DNA of 64,000 nt from Natronolimnohabitans innermongolicus JCM 12255 (GTDB taxonomy: Archaea; Halobacteriota; Halobacteria; Halobacteriales; Natrialbaceae). The position numbers and the translations under genes are program-made. The notes under the pieces are model-generated. The model was not told the DNA's origin and searched no databases. It was given only the letters and a program-made list of their open reading frames with translations. Shown one piece after another: positions 2,511 to 16,120 of this stretch. Numbering within the stretch: position 1 is the first letter of the stretch; every line of letters starts with the position of its first letter. The stretch lies in assembly GCF_000337215.1 (NCBI RefSeq), contig NZ_AOHZ01000031.1, positions 1 through 64,000 on the forward strand. Reading direction: 5' to 3'.

Positions 2511-3764
2511 ATGTCAGAGGAAAACCGACTTTCACGACGTCAGAGCTTGTTTGGAATCGGCGCTGCAGGGACTGCCCTCGGCGGGGCGGCGCTCGGGGTT
2601 TCGAACGTGTTCGCGGGCGACGACCAGTCCAAAGAGAAGGGAACGGACGACACGGATACCAAGGATAAGAAAAACGACGATCCCAAGGGGACGCTCACGC
2701 TCGAGCTCGTCTGTCACGGCAAGGGTGATGCCGAGTTCCGTGTCGTGAACGACGATACGAAGAACGCGAAGGTCGACTGGAAGGTCAGTATCGACGACTT
2801 CGACTTCGAGGATCTGGACGACCTCACCGACGCCAACGGGATCGAAGACATTCCGGACGACAACGGCTTCGAGGATATCGACGACCTCGATGATATCACC
2901 GACGCCAACGGAATCGAGGACGTTCCGGACGACAACGGCTTCGAAGACGCGTTCGACGTCGGCGACCTCGATCTCGAGGATCTCGAGGGCAAACAGGTCA
3001 CCCTCGAGGGAACCACGCTCGACGTGGGCAAGCGCATGTTCGACCTGCGCCAGGTCGTCAGCGAGAAGCGACTCAAAGAGATGGGGATCGACGTCGACAA
3101 GCTGAGCGGCACGCTCACCGTGCCGAAAAACGCCGACGAGACCTTCTGGGCCGGCATCATCTCCAAGGACAGTAACGTCGACCTCTACTACGACGGCAAA
3201 AAGGTCGACTCCGTGAAGGTCGACGAGGCCGACTGCAAGGGCGACGATTCGAAGAAAAAGAACGGCGACTACATCGAACTCGAGCCGGTCTGTTATAAGG
3301 ACGCGGAGACCGACATCGCCGACCTGGACGACACCACCGTCGGGAACACCGTCGGTAGCGACGTGACGGGTGTCGACGAGGACTTCGACCCCGACGGCGA
3401 GATGATCGTCGACGGCGAGGAAGTCGACGAGGACGATTACGACGGCGCCGTGGACGCCGAGAACAATGTCATCGACGACAGCGGGTTCTCGACGGACGAC
3501 CTCGATGGGCTCGAGGGAACCGCGACGGTCCGCGAAGCGAAGTTCCGGGTTCACAACCGCAGCAAGAAGGAGGTCAAAGTCAACTGGTCCGTCGAAGGCG
3601 ACGGCCAGGGTGGCAAGCTCTACCTCGACGGAAAGGAGTCGACGACGTTCCGCGTGACCGAGCACAACGACCGCAAGACGTACGTGACGCTCACCGACGA
3701 CGGCAAAGAAATCGCCTCGGAGAAGCCCGCGGATACCGAGTGCGACGACGACTGCAATACGTAA
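2511..3764 (+). CDS. Tat-exported acidic protein with duplicated domain
   Basis: A 417-residue protein. The start MSEENRLSRRQSLFGIG gives a twin-arginine signal (RRQSLFG, residues 9-15) followed by a hydrophobic stretch and a likely cleavage near residue 36. The mature part has two related units: LELVCHGKGDAEFRVVN...VDWKVS (residues 64-93) and LEPVCYKDAET...AKFRVHNRSKKEVKVNWSV in the C-terminal third. Each is interrupted by acidic low-complexity sequence. In the first unit this is an exact-style duplication, DANGIEDIPDDNGFED then DANGIEDVPDDNGFED (about residues 107-146). Function is unknown; it is probably a cell-surface or secreted protein. An upstream in-frame ATG at 2460 would bury the signal, so 2511 was chosen. 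A transposon sits directly downstream. Confidence 0.8.
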   Translation: MSEENRLSRRQSLFGIGAAGTALGGAALGVSNVFAGDDQSKEKGTDDTDTKDKKNDDPKGTLTLELVCHGKGDAEFRVVNDDTKNAKVDWKVSIDDFDFEDLDDLTDANGIEDIPDDNGFEDIDDLDDITDANGIEDVPDDNGFEDAFDVGDLDLEDLEGKQVTLEGTTLDVGKRMFDLRQVVSEKRLKEMGIDVDKLSGTLTVPKNADETFWAGIISKDSNVDLYYDGKKVDSVKVDEADCKGDDSKKKNGDYIELEPVCYKDAETDIADLDDTTVGNTVGSDVTGVDEDFDPDGEMIVDGEEVDEDDYDGAVDAENNVIDDSGFSTDDLDGLEGTATVREAKFRVHNRSKKEVKVNWSVEGDGQGGKLYLDGKESTTFRVTEHNDRKTYVTLTDDGKEIASEKPADTECDDDCNT

Positions 3765-3935: not shown

Positions 3936-5187
<1,252 letters not shown>

Positions 5188-5354
5188 TATCTCAACGAGG
5201 AGCGACTCCCCGACGGAACGACGCGCGTACCGACAGCGCTCGAGTGGCGGACGTCGTTCGCGCCCGAACGAGTTCGGCATTGCCAGCCACGTACGCACCG
5301 TATACTCGCCGCGAGACCCGAAGATCCTTTATTTCCTGTTCGGATATCCCGTGT

Positions 5355-7610: not shown

Positions 7611-8858
7611 ATGAGACGTCGGATCTATCTAGCGACGGCAGCAGCGGCCTCGATCGCCGGCTGCATGGACTTCGTCCGACCGGATGCCGAGGACGACGAA
7701 CCCGACGACGAACCCGACGACGGCGACGACCCGCCCGCACTCGAAGCCGCCGGCGACGACGGCACGATCGACGAGTTCGCGGATCTCGAGGCCTGGACGG
7801 TCGTCTCGGGGAACGCGTCGCTGGTCGACGAGGACGCGGGCGTCGGGGAGACGGCCGTCAGACTCGCGGCCGGTAGCGACGACGACGGAGCGCGAATGGT
7901 CCGGGAACTGCCCGAACCGCTCGACTGCTCGGAAGCGAGCCCCGGACTGGCAGTTGCGCCCGACGACACCGTCACGGTCCTCCTGCAGTTGTTCGACGAC
8001 AGTGGCAACGTCCTCGACTTTCGAACGACGGTCCACGAGGCCGACGAACCACGGCGGTGTAACTTCGGCATCGACACCGCCGCCGACGACGTCGATCCGA
8101 CCGACATTACGACGATCCACGTCGCCTTCTTCGCCGGCGAAGACGCCGAACAGGAACTCCTGCTCGACGATCTCCACCTCGTTCCCCGTCCCGAGACGGG
8201 GCTGGTGACGATCCAGTTCGACAACGGTCACGAATCCATCTACGACGAGGGATTTCCCGTCCTCGAGGAGTACGGCTACCCCGCTACGGCGTTCGTCCCG
8301 ACGGACCTGATTCGTGCCCTCGACGATCACGAGGGCGAGCGGTTTACCGAAGCACAGCTCGAGGAGCTGTCGGACGCCGGCTGGACGATCGCCAGCCACA
8401 CGGCAAACGCCCACCAGCTTCCGGACCTCGAGCCGGACGACCAGGCCGACCAGCTCGCGGAGGCTCGCGAGTGGCTCGAGGCGGAAGGGTACGACGACGG
8501 CGCCGGCTACGTCTCGTATCCGGTCGGTCGATACGACGGGAGCTCTCTCGAATACGCCGCCGAAACCTACGATCTGGGCTTCGAACTCGGCTACCCCGTC
8601 CAGGGCTACGTCGCCGATCCGGCCCGCTACCCACGCGTCGTCGACCCTGAGGTCGAGGACGCCGAGGAATTGCTCGAACGGACGGCCGAACTGGGTGGCA
8701 TCACCTCGCTTTGTTACTACGCGCTCGAGGGCGACGTCGTCGAGCGGTTCGAAGAAACGATGGCGCTGCTCGCCGACCACGTCGAGAACGGCGATCTCGA
8801 GGTCATCACGCTCGCCGACATCGAATCCGAGTACGTCTTCGACGCGGACGGGGAGTGA
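7611..8858 (+). CDS. Polysaccharide deacetylase-family lipoprotein
   Basis: A 415-residue protein. MRRRIYLATAAAASIAGC is a lipoprotein signal with Cys18, followed by an acidic spacer. A beta-rich region spans about residues 50-190. The C-terminal NodB-like fold begins at TIQFDNGHESIYDEGFPVLEEYGYPATAFVPTDLI and includes SHTANAHQ. In active enzymes the first motif is usually TFDDG; here it is QFDNG, so one metal/catalytic Asp is replaced by Asn, while the SHTxxxH-type metal pair is kept. It probably acts on a surface glycan, or has become a binding protein. Confidence 0.8.
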   Translation: MRRRIYLATAAAASIAGCMDFVRPDAEDDEPDDEPDDGDDPPALEAAGDDGTIDEFADLEAWTVVSGNASLVDEDAGVGETAVRLAAGSDDDGARMVRELPEPLDCSEASPGLAVAPDDTVTVLLQLFDDSGNVLDFRTTVHEADEPRRCNFGIDTAADDVDPTDITTIHVAFFAGEDAEQELLLDDLHLVPRPETGLVTIQFDNGHESIYDEGFPVLEEYGYPATAFVPTDLIRALDDHEGERFTEAQLEELSDAGWTIASHTANAHQLPDLEPDDQADQLAEAREWLEAEGYDDGAGYVSYPVGRYDGSSLEYAAETYDLGFELGYPVQGYVADPARYPRVVDPEVEDAEELLERTAELGGITSLCYYALEGDVVERFEETMALLADHVENGDLEVITLADIESEYVFDADGE

Positions 8859-9969: not shown

Positions 9970-11418
9970 ATGACTCTATCACGACGTTCGACGATCAAGG
10001 CGATCGGCGTAGTCGGTGCGGGAACAGCCGTCACCGGATCCGCACTGGCCGTCAACGAACACGAAGACGACGAGCGCGACGCCGACGAGGTCCCCGACGA
10101 CGAGGAGGTCGGCGCGATCCGCGTCGGACACTTCTCGCCCGACGCACCCGAGGTGGACGTCTACGTCGACGACCAGCAGATCCTCTCGGACGTCGGCTAC
10201 GACGAACTCTCGCCGTACCTCGAGATCGCACCCGGCACGTACACGCTGACGATTACGGCCGCCGGCGACGACGAACCGGTCTACGAGGACTCCCTCTCGG
10301 TCGACACGGACTTCTATACGGCCGCTGCGATCGGCGAGCTCGAAGCCGACGAAGACGATCCGGTCACCGGAGACGACGAGGACGTCGACGAGCCCGAAAC
10401 CGCGTCGGCCGTACAGGACGACGACCTCGAGAACGGCCTCGAAGACGACGACGATGACGACCTCGAGGACGACGACGATCTCGAAAACGGTCTCGAGGAC
10501 GATCCCGAGGACGACGACGACGACGAGCCCGACACGGGAACGTTCGACGTCCTGTTGCTGTACGACGCCCAGCCCGACGAGGTCGAAGAAGAAACCGCAC
10601 AGCTGCGGATCGTTCACGCGTCACCCGACGCACCGACGGTCGACATCGGCGTCGAAGAGGGACTCTCGCTGTTCGAGGACGTCGCCTTCGCCGAACCCTC
10701 CGGCTACGCTCCCGTCGGTCCCGGCGAGCAGACGCTCGACATCTTCGAAGCTGACGAAAACGATCTGGGCGCGGCACCCGACGGAGAGGGAGACGACGAG
10801 GACGCCGAGCCCGAAACCGCGTCGGCGATCCAGGACGACGACGATGACGACCTCGAGAACGGCCTCGAGGACGACGACGACCTCGAAGACGACGATGACG
10901 ACGAGGACGACGCCGAACTCGGAGACGACGAAGTAATCGATCAGCCAGACCCCCTCACGTCAGTCGACGTCGAGTTCGAGGAGGGAACGGCCTACACGGC
11001 GTTCGCGATCGGCTACTTCGAGCAGTTCGACGACGAGGATCTCGAAAACGGTCTCGAAGACGAAGACGAGGAGGAAGACGACGTCGACGAACCGGAGACC
11101 GGATCGCTCGTCCAGGACGACTACGACGACGACGATGACGAGGACGACCGACCGTTCGAAATCCGTCTCGTCGTCGACGGCACGGAAGAAGAAGAGGCCG
11201 ACGAGGAACCGGAGGAAGCCGATCCTGACGAGGAAGAAATCGAGGAACCGGACGACGAGGACGACGAGCTCGAGGATGACGATGACGAGGACGAGCTCGA
11301 TGACGACTACGACGATGACGACGACCTCGAAGACGACGACCTCGAAGACGACGACTACGATGAGGACGACGACTACGACGACGCCGAAGAGGAAGATCCG
11401 CTAACCGCGGACGACTGA
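9970..11418 (+). CDS. Exported DUF4397 protein with acidic inserts
   Basis: A 482-residue protein. SRRSTIKAIG (residues 4-13) is a Tat signal. Two DUF4397 units are visible: IRVGHFSPDAPEVDVYVD...LEIAPGTYTLTIT (50-96) and LRIVHASPDAPTVDIGV...APVGPGEQTLDIF (212-259). Three long acidic inserts interrupt loops (about 125-190, 262-327 and 353-394). Each carries a hydrophobic-Gln motif (ETASAVQDD, ETASAIQDD, ETGSLVQDD) and ENGLEDD/ENGLEDE. The C-terminal 75 residues are almost pure Asp/Glu. DUF4397 proteins are extracellular beta-sandwich proteins of unknown function. The insert motif recurs in the two secreted paralogs at 13037-16120. Confidence 0.85.
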   Translation: MTLSRRSTIKAIGVVGAGTAVTGSALAVNEHEDDERDADEVPDDEEVGAIRVGHFSPDAPEVDVYVDDQQILSDVGYDELSPYLEIAPGTYTLTITAAGDDEPVYEDSLSVDTDFYTAAAIGELEADEDDPVTGDDEDVDEPETASAVQDDDLENGLEDDDDDDLEDDDDLENGLEDDPEDDDDDEPDTGTFDVLLLYDAQPDEVEEETAQLRIVHASPDAPTVDIGVEEGLSLFEDVAFAEPSGYAPVGPGEQTLDIFEADENDLGAAPDGEGDDEDAEPETASAIQDDDDDDLENGLEDDDDLEDDDDDEDDAELGDDEVIDQPDPLTSVDVEFEEGTAYTAFAIGYFEQFDDEDLENGLEDEDEEEDDVDEPETGSLVQDDYDDDDDEDDRPFEIRLVVDGTEEEEADEEPEEADPDEEEIEEPDDEDDELEDDDDEDELDDDYDDDDDLEDDDLEDDDYDEDDDYDDAEEEDPLTADD

Positions 11419-11460
11419 TCGGCGACCGTCGACGCGCCATCCACCCGCCGATTCGAACGC

Positions 11461-11474
11461 CGCTTTTTTAGCGT
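11461..11474 (+). terminator. T-tract terminator
   Basis: CGCTTTTTTAGCG: a run of six T (11464-11469) inside a 4-bp inverted CGCT/AGCG, 45 nt after the DUF4397 stop codon. T-runs are the usual archaeal termination signal. Confidence 0.5.
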
Positions 11475-11568
11475 GATCGACGACGCGGAGCCGTCAGTTT
11501 CTCGATAGGACGACCTGGTCAGTGGGCCGTCGAGACCGTCTCGAGAGCGACACTCGTCGACCGAGAGC

Positions 11569-11658
11569 GCGATAGGAGCCACTGAAACGAACAGAAGATC
11601 CCGAGCGCAACGCAGTCCTGTGACCGGGCGTGCAGCGACTGTCAGTGGCTCCTATCGC
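11569..11658. repeat. 90-bp segment with perfect 17-bp terminal inverted repeats
   Basis: GCGATAGGAGCCACTGA (11569-11585) is the exact reverse complement of 11642-11658, with 56 nt between. It lies in the ~430-nt gap between two convergent genes (DUF4397 and padR), where no coding frame is supported. It could be a MITE-like remnant or a long-stem RNA structure; no clear target-site duplication is visible. Confidence 0.7.
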
Positions 11659-11852
11659 AATTCCGGAGACGCGCCCCTGACCGCAGTAGCCGTCGACTCG
11701 AGACCGTCGTTGTACGTCGGCGCGGATACTCGAGACGGCCCGTCGAAACGACGGACGTCGCTGATCGAGTGCGCTGCTCGTCGGTTCGACGCAGCGACTG
11801 GTAGGAGAGAGCGGACGGCGTCCGAGCGATGATGAGAGAACTGCCAGGGGTG

Positions 11853-12128
11853 TCAGACGTCGACGTACTGGTTAACCCACTCCTGGCGTCGTTGCAACGC
11901 TCGACGACCTTTCGGCGTCAGCGCGTAGTAATTCGTCCGTCGATCGAGCTGTCCCTTCTCGACGAGCTCTTTTTCGACGAGCGTATCGAGGTTGGGATAC
12001 AGCCGGCCGTGTGTGACCGGTTGATCGATGTAGTTGTTGATGTCGTCGAGAATCTCCTGTCCCGACGGTCGATCCTTCCCTGCAATTACGTACAGCAAGT
12101 CACGCTGAAATCCGGTTAGCTGATCCAT
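11853..12128 (-). CDS. PadR-family transcriptional regulator
   Basis: A 91-residue winged-helix protein: MDQLTGFQRDLLYVIAGKDRPSGQEILDDIN...VTHGRLYPNLDTLVEKELVEKG...NYYALTPKGRRAL. The HGRLYPNLDTLV recognition region and YxLTxxG wing are standard for PadR proteins of the short (about 90-110 residue) class. It likely represses its own promoter and perhaps a neighbour; the ligand is unknown. A palindrome between its TATA-like box and start codon (12141-12158) supports autoregulation. It is divergent from the NUDIX gene. Confidence 0.88.
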   Translation of the reverse strand: MDQLTGFQRDLLYVIAGKDRPSGQEILDDINNYIDQPVTHGRLYPNLDTLVEKELVEKGQLDRRTNYYALTPKGRRALQRRQEWVNQYVDV

Positions 12129-12140
12129 GGATCACCCTCT

Positions 12141-12178
12141 GAGTGACGACCTTCACTCATCTGTGACTTTGTTATAGA
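12141..12178 (-). promoter_or_regulatory. padR promoter with palindromic operator
   Basis: Reading towards padR, a TATA-like CTATAACAA (about 12170-12178) is followed by GAGTGA-AGGTCG-TCACTC (12141-12158), a 6+6 bp palindrome, then the ATG at 12128. An operator between TATA box and start is the expected layout for an autorepressor. Confidence 0.55.
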
Positions 12179-12304
12179 GCCGGTACGGACGTCCCGGAGC
12201 GCAGAACGCACGGCATAGGACGGGGTAACCCTCCCCATTATGGACCGCCGCGTTCGTGCGTCGGTGACGCGGCGTTTTTGACAGCAACCGCCGTACGACC
12301 CGAC

Positions 12305-12859
12305 ATGCCCACCGATCCGCTCGCCTGGGAGACGCTCGAGAGCGAAGTAGCCTACAGTTGTCCGGGCTTCAACGTCGTTAACGACCGCGTTCGGCTTCCC
12401 GACGGCACCGAGACCGAGTTCGATTACCTCTCCGAGCCCGCGAGCGTCTGCGTGCTTCCGTTTACCCCCAACGGCGACGTCGTCTGTATCGAGGAGTGGC
12501 GCCAGGCCGTCGACCGCGTCAACTACGGACTCCCGGTTGGCGGAACCGAACCCGAAGACGACGACCTCGAGGCGGCGGCCCGTCGCGAACTGGCCGAAGA
12601 AACGGGCCACGAGGCCGAGACGCTCGAGTCGCTGGTGACCGTGGAACCGGCGAACGGCCTCGCCGACTCGGTGATGCACTTCGTCGTCGCCCGCGGCTGT
12701 CGGCCGACCGCCGAACAACGACTCGATCACAACGAGAGCATCCGCGTGACGCCGACGGCGTTCGACGACCTCCTCGAGTCGGTCCGCGCGGGCGAGATTC
12801 GCGACGGCCGGACCGTGCTGGCCGTCTCCTACTATCAGCTGTTCGAAGCCGACTCGTAG
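12305..12859 (+). CDS. NUDIX hydrolase
   Basis: A 184-residue hydrolase of the ADP-sugar pyrophosphatase type. The Nudix box reads GGTEPEDDDLEAAARRELAE then ETGHE, keeping the REL-x-EE-TG core that binds divalent metal; the upstream box Glu is replaced by Asp. The N-terminal strand VCVLPFTPNGDVVCIEEWRQAVDRVNYGLPVGG resembles ADP-ribose pyrophosphatases. It probably hydrolyses a nucleoside diphosphate linked to another moiety. The start MPTDPLAWETL at 12305 is preferred over an in-frame upstream codon at 12278. Confidence 0.88.
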   Translation: MPTDPLAWETLESEVAYSCPGFNVVNDRVRLPDGTETEFDYLSEPASVCVLPFTPNGDVVCIEEWRQAVDRVNYGLPVGGTEPEDDDLEAAARRELAEETGHEAETLESLVTVEPANGLADSVMHFVVARGCRPTAEQRLDHNESIRVTPTAFDDLLESVRAGEIRDGRTVLAVSYYQLFEADS

Positions 12860-13036
12860 CGGCCCAACGGGTCGACGGGGCCGCTGCCACCAGTCTCGAC
12901 TCGGGTACTAAAAAATCGAACTGAGACGGGTGTGAGCCGGCTCGTTTTCGCTCTCGGTCGGTTGCCGGTCGGCACTCGACCGGACCGAGGGCCGAACGAG
13001 CGGTCGACTCGATCAGGCCGGCGCGCCGATCATCGA

Positions 13037-14332
13037 TTACTCGGCGTCTTCGTCTCCGTCAGCAGGGTCGTCGTCAGCGTCGGCGTTGTCGGCGTCGTCT
13101 TCGTCCTCGTCACCGTCGTCGGTGTCTTCCTCGATGTCCTCGAGGTCGCTCGCATCGGCGATCGTCATCGACTCGGCGTTCGCGGTGTCGATCGAGATCG
13201 CGGTTGCCGACGCCTGTGAGACGATTTCGGCGTCAGCATCGTCCTCGGCGTCCTCGTCGGGGTCGTCCTGCACGGCGGCCGCCTCGTCAGCGTCGTTTGC
13301 GTTCTCGTCCGCGTCTTCGTCGTCAGGCGCTTCGTCGTCCGCGTCTTCGTCGTCCGCGTCTTCGTCGTCAGCTTCCTCGAGTTCCTCGATCGTCATCGAA
13401 TCGATCGAGACCGCCTCGACGTCGAACTCCTCGATCGTGAGGTCGTCGATCTGTTGGGTCTGTGCCTCCTCGTCGTCGGCGTCAGCGTCTTCTTCGTCCT
13501 CGTCAGCGGCCTCGTCTTCAGGCTCTTCCTCTTCCTGGACGGCCGCCTCCTCGTCGGCCTCGTCGTTCTCATCGTCGTCGTTGAAGAGGCCGTCGAACCA
13601 GTCGCTGATGTCGTCGAGGAGCCCGCCGTCGTCGACCTCGAGATCGTCGATCGACAGCTGCTCGACGGTCATCGACTCGATGGTGAGGTTTTCGATGGTG
13701 AGTTCGTCAGCGTCCTCGTCGATCAGATCCTGCTCGCCGGCGTCGTCAGCGAGGCCGTTCTCCTCGTCGGCCTCGTCGTCAGCCATCTCGTCGTCGTCAG
13801 CGTCGTCCTGGATCACTGCGGCGGTTTCGGCCTCGTCGTCTTCGTCGTCAGCGAGGCCGTTCTCCTCGTCGGCCTCGTCGTCAGCCATCTCGTCATCCTC
13901 CTCTAGCTCGAGATCCTCGATCGAGACGGTCTCGAACTCGAGTTGTTCGATCTGGATGTCCGAGATCGTCACGTCACCGTCCGCCGTGTCGTCCATCGCG
14001 TCTTCGTCGTCGGCAGCATCGTCGTCAGCAGCGTCGCCATCGTTCGCGTCCTCGTCTTCGTCGTCCGTCTCAACGTCCTCGAGTTCCTCGTCGAGGTCCT
14101 CGTCGACGTCGAAGGTTTCGGCGTTCAGTTCCTCGATCGTCGCGTCCTCGATGGTGACGTCGTCGAGTTCGAGTTCACCGACCTGTACGTTTTCGAGTGT
14201 CGCTTCGCCCACGTCTCCGGCGTCGTCGTTCGCCCCGGTCGCGGTCGCGGCACCAGCGAGGGCGGGACCCCCCGAGAGCGCGACCAGCAGGGCGACGAGA
14301 ACGACGCCGCTTTGCTGCAGTCGTGAAACCAT
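13037..14332 (-). CDS. Secreted pentapeptide-like repeat protein with acidic linkers (paralog A)
   Basis: A 431-residue protein. MVSRLQQSGVVLVALLVALSGGPALAGA is a Sec signal. The mature chain alternates two elements. Five blocks (about residues 46-76, 121-144, 211-233, 298-319, 379-400) have a five-residue period [LM]-[TS]-[IV]-[ED]-x, for example LTIEN-LTIES-MTVEQ-LSIDD. Between them lie Asp/Glu/Ala linkers with ENGLADD and ETAAVIQDD motifs. The period suggests a right-handed beta-solenoid like pentapeptide-repeat proteins, though with Leu/Ile instead of Ala/Leu inward positions. No transmembrane anchor is seen at the C terminus. Function unknown. Its upstream neighbour on the same strand is paralog B. 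Confidence 0.8.
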   Translation of the reverse strand: MVSRLQQSGVVLVALLVALSGGPALAGAATATGANDDAGDVGEATLENVQVGELELDDVTIEDATIEELNAETFDVDEDLDEELEDVETDDEDEDANDGDAADDDAADDEDAMDDTADGDVTISDIQIEQLEFETVSIEDLELEEDDEMADDEADEENGLADDEDDEAETAAVIQDDADDDEMADDEADEENGLADDAGEQDLIDEDADELTIENLTIESMTVEQLSIDDLEVDDGGLLDDISDWFDGLFNDDDENDEADEEAAVQEEEEPEDEAADEDEEDADADDEEAQTQQIDDLTIEEFDVEAVSIDSMTIEELEEADDEDADDEDADDEAPDDEDADENANDADEAAAVQDDPDEDAEDDADAEIVSQASATAISIDTANAESMTIADASDLEDIEEDTDDGDEDEDDADNADADDDPADGDEDAE

Positions 14333-14701
14333 GCGGTCGACACTACCGGCGACACGGCGCTAAAGTGGGCCGACTGTTACAGCGTTGGGTTCGAGAAACG
14401 CACAGTTTGAAATCACGTCGCGTGCGCTAATCGAGCGTTCATCGTCTCCGAATCAGAGACCAGTACAGCGCCGAGTATTGAGCTCTGTCGGGCCAAAATA
14501 CGACTTGTGCCTGCGATCGCTGTTGACTTACTATCCGGCCCCGAGAACGCTTCGTTACTGGTCTCGGTGTTGAGACGTTCGGTCGCGGACCGTCAGGGGG
14601 TCACCGTGTTGGTACTCAGTGGCGCAGCAAAAAAGGATACGGCAGTGCGCGGCTGAATCGGGCGTCGTATCGCTCGACGCCGATCAGTTGTGGATCAGCG
14701 C
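14333..14701. other. Intergenic region between the secreted paralogs
   Basis: About 370 nt. The part next to 14332 holds the promoter of paralog A (see 14358-14380). The rest shows no coding frame with haloarchaeal character. A weak repeat of GTTGAGACGTTCGG-type sequence is not convincing. Paralog B ends at 14702 on the same strand, so this gap also carries its terminator. Confidence 0.5.
14358..14380 (-). promoter_or_regulatory. Promoter of paralog A, shared with paralog B
   Basis: Read on the minus strand: AACAGTCGGCCCACTTTAGC, with the TATA-like CTTTAG about 30 nt before ATG 14332. The same upstream block AACAGTCGGC followed 4 nt later by TTTAGC precedes paralog B at 16146-16168. This suggests leaderless transcription and a common activator or BRE context. 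Confidence 0.6.
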
Positions 14702-16120
14702 TTAGAAGAGGTCGGGGAGGAGTCCGTCGTCATCCTCCTCTTCCTCTTCGTCGTCAGCGTCGTCTTCAGCGTCTTCCTCGTCGTCGTCAGCCTCGTCGTC
14801 CTCGTCGTCATCCATCAGGCCGTCGTCGTCATCTGCTTCGTCTTCGTCATCCGTTTCGTCGGCTTCCTCATCCTCGACGTCCTCGAGGTCCTCGGCGTCA
14901 GCGATGGTCAGCGATTCGGCGGTTGCGTCACCGATGTCGATGGAGCTGGCAGAGGCCTGGGAGACGGTCTCCTCGTCGTCAGCCTCGTCGTCGTCCATCT
15001 CGTCATCGTTCATCTCGTCTTCGTCGTCAGCCTCGTCGTCTTCGTCGTCAGCGAGGCCGTTCTCTTCATCGTCGGCCTCGTCGTCATCCATTTCGTCGTC
15101 GTCAAGCTCCGCTTCCTCGACCTGCTCGACGGTCATCGAGTCGACGGTGATCTCGTCAACGTCGAACGTCTCGATGGTTAGCGACTCGATTTCTTGTTCT
15201 TCAGTTTCTTCGTCGTCAGCTTCGTCGTCCTCGAGGCCGTTCTCTTCGTCGGCCTCGTCGTCATCCATTTCGTCCTCGTCGTCAGCGTCGTCCTGGATCA
15301 CTGCGGCGGTCTCAGCCTCGTCGTCTTCGTCGTCAGCGAGGCCGTTCTCTTCGTCGTCAGTCTCGTCTTCGTCGTCAGCGTCGAGTGCGTCGTCGTCGTC
15401 AGCTTCGTCGTCCTCGACGGTCAGTTCGTCGATGGTCAGCGTCTCGACGTTCAGTTCTTCGATGGTGAGCTCCTCGACGGTGAGCTCGTCAGCGTCCTCG
15501 TCGATCAGATCCTGCTCGGCGGCGTCGTCATCTTCGAGGCCGTTCTCCTCGTCGTCGGCCTCGTCGTCATTCATTTCGTCTTCGTCGTCAGCGAGGCCGT
15601 TCTCTTCGTCGTCGGCCTCGTCGTCATCCATTTCGTCTTCGTCGTCAGCCTCGAGCTCGTCATCCTCCTCTAGCTCGAGGTCCTCGATCGAGACGTCCTC
15701 GAGTTCGAGGTGTTCGATCTGGATGTCGGAGATCGTCACTTCTTCTGCGTCAGCGTCGTCAGCGTCCTCCTCGTCCATCTCGTCGTCATCGGTCATCTCG
15801 TCGTCGTCAGCGTCGTCCTGGATGGCCGATGCGGTTTCAGCGTCGTCCTCGTCATCCGCATCCGCGTCTTCGTCAGCCTCGTCCAGTTCGTCCTGGAGTT
15901 CCTCGACGTCAGCGTCGAACTCCTCGACGTTCAGTTCCTCGATCGTCGCGTCTTCGACGGTAACGTTATCCAGTTCGAGTGTCTCTACATCTGCGTCTTG
16001 GATCGTTGCGCTCACGTCTCCATCGTCTGTCGCGCCGGCCGATGCGCTGGCGAGGGCGGGCCCTCCCGACATCGCAACCATTAGCGCGACGAATACGACT
16101 CCGAGCTTTCGTGACACCAT
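14702..16120 (-). CDS. Secreted pentapeptide-like repeat protein with acidic linkers (paralog B)
   Basis: A 472-residue protein starting MVSRKLGVVFVALMVAMSGGPALASA (Sec signal). It has the same architecture as paralog A: five blocks of period five (LELDNVTVEDATIEELNVEEF; VTISDIQIEHLELEDVSIED; LTVEELTIEELNVETLTIDE; LTIETFDVDEITVDSMTVEQ; IDIGDATAESLTIADAEDLE) joined by acidic linkers. ENGLADD/ENGLEDD occurs five times, and ETASAIQDD and ETAAVIQDD once each. The C terminus DDDGLLPDLF is hydrophobic and distinct from paralog A. An extension upstream to 16363 would run through the promoter, so ATG 16120 is chosen. Confidence 0.8.
   Translation of the reverse strand: MVSRKLGVVFVALMVAMSGGPALASASAGATDDGDVSATIQDADVETLELDNVTVEDATIEELNVEEFDADVEELQDELDEADEDADADDEDDAETASAIQDDADDDEMTDDDEMDEEDADDADAEEVTISDIQIEHLELEDVSIEDLELEEDDELEADDEDEMDDDEADDEENGLADDEDEMNDDEADDEENGLEDDDAAEQDLIDEDADELTVEELTIEELNVETLTIDELTVEDDEADDDDALDADDEDETDDEENGLADDEDDEAETAAVIQDDADDEDEMDDDEADEENGLEDDEADDEETEEQEIESLTIETFDVDEITVDSMTVEQVEEAELDDDEMDDDEADDEENGLADDEDDEADDEDEMNDDEMDDDEADDEETVSQASASSIDIGDATAESLTIADAEDLEDVEDEEADETDDEDEADDDDGLMDDDEDDEADDDEEDAEDDADDEEEEEDDDGLLPDLF

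Follow-up and report, generated by a model that had tools for sequence, protein, structure and literature searches.

Why do exported proteins of unrelated fold, encoded in a single haloarchaeal genome, carry acidic inserts written in the same few words? The question is raised by a stretch of 64,000 nucleotides from Natronolimnohabitans innermongolicus JCM 12255 (the window; contig C31 of the 4.59-Mb genome that we searched), in which a DUF4397 protein (D) and two paralogous proteins (P1 and P2) share the motif ETx[AS]x[IV]Q[DE]D, hereafter the IQ motif, and words of the ENGLxDD type. In this genome the words are restricted to a set of exported proteins. The inserts occupy fixed positions, unrelated proteins of one genome share their vocabulary, the difference between acidic runs and N-glycosylation sequons is coordinated among them, and the motif is retained. 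We consider it about an even bet that the inserts are fast-evolving disordered surface loops, shaped by slippage and selection, each bearing one short linear motif for a putative common partner. The features concerned are the following.

9970-11418, forward strand: D, probably Tat-exported, with two DUF4397 (PF14344) domains split by acidic inserts (Pfam)
10336-10551, forward strand: D insert 1 (residues 123-194), with TASAVQDD and two ENGLEDD words (predicted coil between strands; alignment gap region)
10399-10422, forward strand: IQ motif TASAVQDD in D (pattern search)
10429-10449, forward strand: ENGLEDD word in D (pattern search)
10483-10503, forward strand: ENGLEDD word in D (pattern search)
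10750-10956, forward strand: D insert 2 (residues 261-329), with TASAIQDD and one ENGLEDD word (alignment, predicted structure)
10816-10839, forward strand: IQ motif TASAIQDD in D (pattern search)
10855-10875, forward strand: ENGLEDD word in D (pattern search)
11008-11166, forward strand: D insert 3 (residues 347-399), with ENGLEDE and TGSLVQDD (alignment, predicted structure)
11044-11064, forward strand: ENGLEDE word in D (sequence)
11098-11121, forward strand: IQ motif TGSLVQDD in D (sequence)
11185-11415, forward strand: acidic C-terminal tail of D, with neither IQ motif nor ENGL word (sequence)
13037-14332, reverse strand: P2, with a signal peptide and period-5 [LV]-[TN]-[IV]-[ED]-x modules linked by acidic inserts
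13742-13762, reverse strand: ENGLADD word in P2 (pattern search)
13802-13825, reverse strand: IQ motif TAAVIQDD in P2 (pattern search)
13844-13864, reverse strand: ENGLADD word in P2 (pattern search)
14702-16120, reverse strand: P1, paralog of P2, with a signal peptide and the period-5 pattern (sequence)
15044-15064, 15224-15244, 15329-15349, 15527-15547 and 15584-15604, reverse strand: five ENGL[EA]DD words in P1 (pattern search)
15287-15310, reverse strand: IQ motif TAAVIQDD in P1 (pattern search)
15812-15835, reverse strand: IQ motif TASAIQDD in P1 (pattern search)

All the words that a preliminary description of the window had quoted from D, P1 and P2 are present, each in its place, and P2 has in addition the weaker motif versions EEAAVQEE and EAAAVQDD. 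We then asked how far the vocabulary extends in the genome. Searched as a degenerate DNA pattern, ENGLxDD gave 21 matches and the backwards pattern, used as a control, gave none. All 21 lie in five exported open reading frames: the window genes D, P1 and P2 account for ten, and the other eleven belong to two lipoproteins, LA and LB, which are unlinked to the window genes and lie on other contigs. LA (contig C3) has a CarboxypepD_reg domain divided by its insert (PF13620, 37.5 bits against a cut-off of 32.3, in two stretches, the best one after the insert) and also carries ETESAIQEDD. LB (contig C47) consists past its lipobox almost entirely of ENGLEDDDEDD repeats, a 33-nt unit in 8.6 copies according to Tandem Repeats Finder (TRF). 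The six genome matches of the IQ motif all fall within D, P1, P2 and LA. The sharing across unrelated folds and the confinement to exported proteins, both suggested in the preliminary description, are thus borne out and widened to LA and LB. Among 394 genomes of the order, more than two matches to the ENGL pattern were found only in G000, G190, G233 and G346 (21, 10, 9 and 4 matches, respectively), and these four have the same gene set.

As a within-genome control, every run of ten acidic residues was located and the remaining genes were inspected. ENGL and the IQ motif are absent from these other acidic-run genes, which encode ribosomal stalk proteins, a HEAT-repeat protein and other proteins without an evident signal, as well as acidic exported proteins: two polyacidic lipoproteins on contig C62, one on C107, and a C18 membrane protein with two CarboxypepD_reg-like stretches. 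The vocabulary is therefore not generic to acidic proteins, nor even to acidic exported ones, and a generic vocabulary of all acidic proteins in the genome was rejected. One of the C62 lipoproteins (L294, 1606-2280) is made almost wholly of Asp, Glu and Gly past its lipobox, with no ENGL or IQ words, and stands beside another acidic-tailed lipoprotein.

The next question is whether the inserts arrived recently. Syntenic relatives of the DUF4397 gene occur in Natrialbaceae, the nearest being in Natronorubrum texcoconense and Natronolimnohabitans sp. A-GB9. The D, P and LA genes of relatives were picked by regular expressions and some P genes were missed, so that all counts refer to the genes found. 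Across nine to eleven genomes, D orthologs can be aligned well except at three loops and the tail, and their inserts sit at the same loops; likewise, the P inserts of orthologs divide the same modules. Judged from these alignments, D and P have their inserts at positions that are ancestral and have been kept in the syntenic orthologs examined. Variable insertion sites, filled in some genomes and empty in others, were not seen among these D and P orthologs, though D insert 3 is nearly absent in some of them, with only 8-13 residues. The placement of the D inserts at three loops, as first described, agrees with both the alignment and the low-confidence predicted coil. A DUF4397 paralog in the same genome (L039, contig C68) has its two domains without such inserts.

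These positions bear on the idea that the words are dispersed among exported genes by a mobile DNA cassette inserting in frame, or by gene conversion occurring often. The preliminary description had raised a spreading cassette and had named ancestral, position-conserved inserts as what would speak against it, and this is what was found. Some features do look like copying: D and P1 of G233 have an identical 21-nt ENGLADD word with a GCA codon, a 60-nt stretch is 83% alike between D and P2, and G000 and G233 show slightly raised codon identity between shared words. However, in G317, G349 and G370 the same identity is below the shuffled null, and the longest inverted-repeat pairs listed match D only with the oppositely oriented P genes and are not element ends. 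Moreover, the codon agreement of the motif, counted over identical residues, is 0.650 between unrelated families within a genome vs 0.630 between genomes (p=0.30). Because the motif codons are no more alike within than between genomes, recent DNA copying is unsupported, and the mobile cassette, unsupported by insert positions and codon agreement alike, is in our view highly improbable. Some local DNA exchange in certain genomes, for example G233, is nevertheless possible.

While the positions are kept, the wording is not. It differs completely between relatives, each genome having its own vocabulary: ENGVDDADD, ENGMDDD and EYGEED in N. halalkaliphilum (G233), SESDGYTD in N. thiooxidans (G364), SNGYDNGN in G331, DNAT, DNET and NETNET in G317, and EDNATEDNET and DGIGLED in Haloterrigena salina (G379). 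On the sequences compared, the ENGL word belongs to the present vocabulary of this lineage; elsewhere its place is taken by ENGM, ENGV, NGY, SESDGYTD or DNET. This lability also bears on whether the NG words could be cation loops (D-x-D-x-[DN]-G-[LIV]-x-D-x-x-[DE]) resembling those of EF-hand or TSP3 repeats, with bound Ca2+ or Mg2+ stiffening the surface proteins or linking them to one another. The stretch DDDENGLEDDDE does have the spacing of such a loop and, following Gly, a hydrophobic residue; but within a nearly pure D/E context every NG fits the pattern, so that the fit says little. Relatives have sequons or NGD, NGY or NGN in place of the word, and the TSP3, EF-hand and dockerin profiles gave no match at E<=10 in LA, LB and a relative's P. 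TSP3 and EF-hand repeats were rejected for want of a profile match, and we regard cation loops of this kind as improbable.

As to the source of the turnover, the inserts contain in-frame tandem repeats of 12-57 nt (TRF). Such arrays, in the inserts and in LB, make repeat slippage the likely source. The same arrays, the high lability of the wording and a genome-wide codon bias that favours the same GAC/GAG/CTC/AAC words would also suit neutral acidic spacers with no common function, in which the same words arise independently through slippage together with the codon and mutation bias of the genome, the IQ motif being an ancient leftover. This we find rather unlikely. The other acidic exported proteins of the genome lack the words, and the motif has non-acidic residues, unlike slippage products; its behaviour in relatives, given below, also speaks against it.

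Vocabulary is shared within genomes more than between them. With pure D/E words excluded, the sharing of 5-mers between unrelated families was compared within and between genomes by a permutation test, and was higher within genomes for D and P (1.8x, p 0.0007), D and LA (2.2x, p 0.0006) and P and LA (2.3x, p <0.0001). It follows a gradient, from the same genome through the same genus to other genera. The density of N-glycosylation sequons is also correlated between families (Spearman 0.89 for P vs LA, n=18; 0.82 for D vs LA, n=11; 0.66 for D vs P, n=13), with no such correlation in the RpoB control (Spearman -0.17). On an RpoB tree, a single-gene tree whose nodes are weak and in which one sequence (G218) is misplaced, the sequon-rich genomes (G317; genus g19; G311 with G337; G209 with G293) do not form one group. 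This scatter suggests several switches, in which the proteins of several lineages exchanged acidic runs for N-glycosylation sequons in step.

The IQ motif behaves differently from the words around it. Under relaxed counting and in IQ-positive genomes, exactly one motif was found in 10 of 11 LA inserts, whereas P inserts had one motif in 32 cases, none in 19 and two in 1; the Poisson probability of so few double-motif P inserts is 0.0037, without correction for shared ancestry. In IQ-negative genomes it was found in 0 of 83 inserts. In LA it stays in place while its flanks go from DDDEDD to NETNET, and in G317 it persists within NET repeats. The motif also occurs, as ETxSF[IV]Q[DE]D, in an acidic or sequon-rich insert of an exported ferredoxin (PF16947, Fer4; 4Fe-4S, with a Tat-like stretch) of G190 and of a paralog in G305 (L134, 1765-3630, and L138, 2917-4653). 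These ferredoxin loops use the vocabulary of their own genome. The insert with the motif is missing or differently worded in most relatives, and the ferredoxins that matched best in the 25 other genomes inspected did not show the motif. The motif thus has the marks of a short linear motif, being short and conserved, with unalignable flanks, and recurring in unrelated proteins. That it is held through complete flank turnover, about once per insert and in an unrelated ferredoxin, argues against neutral spacers; and because it is kept about once per loop while the wording changes, a selected docking or processing signal looks favoured over a jumping cassette. As for the selected binding element also put forward in the preliminary description, it is plausible for the IQ motif, now known from a fourth unrelated fold; ENGL is different, a replaceable lineage wording.

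Structures were predicted for D and P1. In the AlphaFold model of D, of low confidence, residues 123-194, 261-329 and 347-399 are coil between strands; that of P1, also of low confidence, has beta modules at residues 206-238, 305-337 and 383-403, the rest being mostly disordered. Most insert residues have a predicted local distance difference test score (pLDDT) below 50, and the confidence of the scaffold is also low. The insert loops may be disordered, as far as these models indicate. At the level of families, D matched PF14344 in two stretches with 117.6 bits (curated cut-off 30.6 bits; Pfam profile search), but three long inserts interrupt its domains; its TAT_signal match (15.5 bits) is under the cut-off of that profile. 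P1 and P2, whose genes adjoin each other, do show the period-5 pattern for which they had been called pentapeptide-like; however, neither matches a Pfam family above its curated cut-off or a pentapeptide model at E<=0.1, and the G317 P protein has no Pfam pentapeptide match even at E<=10. The pentapeptide repeat family (A[DN]Lxx) was rejected for lack of a profile match. A PDB profile search with P found nothing, and a fold search of the PDB with the low-confidence P model gave no match. For the D model the fold matches were weak, to beta-sandwiches (best E 5e-4, to the PepT1 extracellular domain), and we did not use them; an NCBIfam search returned nothing useful.

The scenario that we favour for the surface loops would be as follows. 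In a small exported set of Natrialbaceae (D, P1/P2 and LA, with LB and the ferredoxin in some genomes), folds unrelated to one another would carry old disordered loops at surface turns whose positions are fixed. In-frame repeat slippage would lengthen and rewrite them, and selection at the extracellular face would set their composition lineage by lineage, so that the wording shifts in step across the set. Some lineages would thereby have polyacidic loops with a few scattered hydrophobic words (ENGL, ENGM, ENGV, DLMDD), others loops full of N-glycosylation sequons. In one clade each loop would usually also retain a single E-T-x-[AS]-x-[IV]-Q-[DE]-D motif, most likely for docking to, or processing by, one putative common extracytoplasmic partner. 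On this view the loops could act as hydration bristles, each lineage fixing their charge or kind of glycan, and the IQ motif could be a docking or processing signal for a single putative partner.

Several points weigh against this scenario. The D protein of genus g19 is without the motif, although its P and LA have it, and many P inserts also lack it. In G000 and G233, shared-word codon identity is modestly above the codon-shuffled null. Phylogeny is not taken into account by the permutation and correlation tests, and the counts of motif gain and loss rest on the poorly supported single-gene tree with its misplaced G218. Finally, mean pLDDT is 46 for both the D and the P models, which are only indicative.

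How do the loops compare with known systems? Haloarchaeal proteins are adapted to salt by acidity, and N-glycosylation is also established in haloarchaea. The loops resemble both, being either polyacidic or rich in N-x-S/T sequons; unlike plain acidic adaptation, they show a coordinated difference between two states in the same homologous loops of unrelated proteins. Rickettsia palindromic elements are mobile palindromic DNA inside protein-coding genes. They likewise give similar inserts within unrelated genes, but here the insert positions are ancestral and the codons are not shared. Of the published phenomena that we found, the nearest is that of the amino-acid tandem repeats (aaTRs) in Borg elements. 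These in-frame tandem repeats are reported to create new disordered regions, to be enriched in extracellular proteins and to evolve fast; proteins of like function carry similar repeats, which resemble short linear motifs (PMC9879509). The inserts and LB similarly carry in-frame tandem repeats (12-57 nt; 33 nt x 8.6). They differ from Borg aaTRs in that they occur in haloarchaeal genomes, are acidic or sequon-rich, and share their words between unrelated folds within a genome, with a conserved motif about once per loop instead of perfect repeat units.

A bolder claim can be made, which we put forward tentatively and think doubtful: ETx[AS]x[IV]Q[DE]D would be a new archaeal extracytoplasmic short linear motif, present about once per disordered loop and recognized by a receptor, protease or cross-linking enzyme dedicated to it, and the unrelated exported proteins of one genome would form a co-evolving surface module whose loops switch in step between acidic and glycosylated states. 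In a limited open-access literature search, judged by titles and abstracts, we found neither the motif nor the coordinated switch described. To our knowledge, few short motif systems are known outside the archaeal cell, and the motif, if so read, would point to one. The loops would also offer a natural comparative experiment, with the same loops on the same scaffolds being acidic or N-glycan-rich by lineage, in step across unrelated proteins; one could then test whether surface charge and glycans are interchangeable in saturated brine.

Some minor observations concern DUF4397 genes elsewhere in the genome and the neighbours of D. At the end of contig C12 (L041, 6093-6127) the sequence CTGTCTCTTATACACATCT, which we take to be the Illumina Nextera adapter, is fused into a truncated DUF4397 lipoprotein gene; this fusion is an assembly artefact. 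Contig C13 begins within a DUF4397 gene, which may be the other half of the truncated one. In the window, an exported protein (2511-3764) was said to have a related repeat:

2835-2942, forward strand: NGIED/NGFED words in the exported protein 2511-3764, a different vocabulary and a looser relation

The NG[IF]ED words are indeed there, at residues 109-144, but the relation is loose: orthologs are mostly worded otherwise, and among those compared the NGI/NGF words are common only to G233. What appears to be a stand-alone TnpB-like gene (OrfB, zinc ribbon; 3936-5165) lies between this protein and a regulator gene at 5244, and, judging from the sequence, a lipoprotein resembling polysaccharide deacetylase is encoded at 7611-8858.

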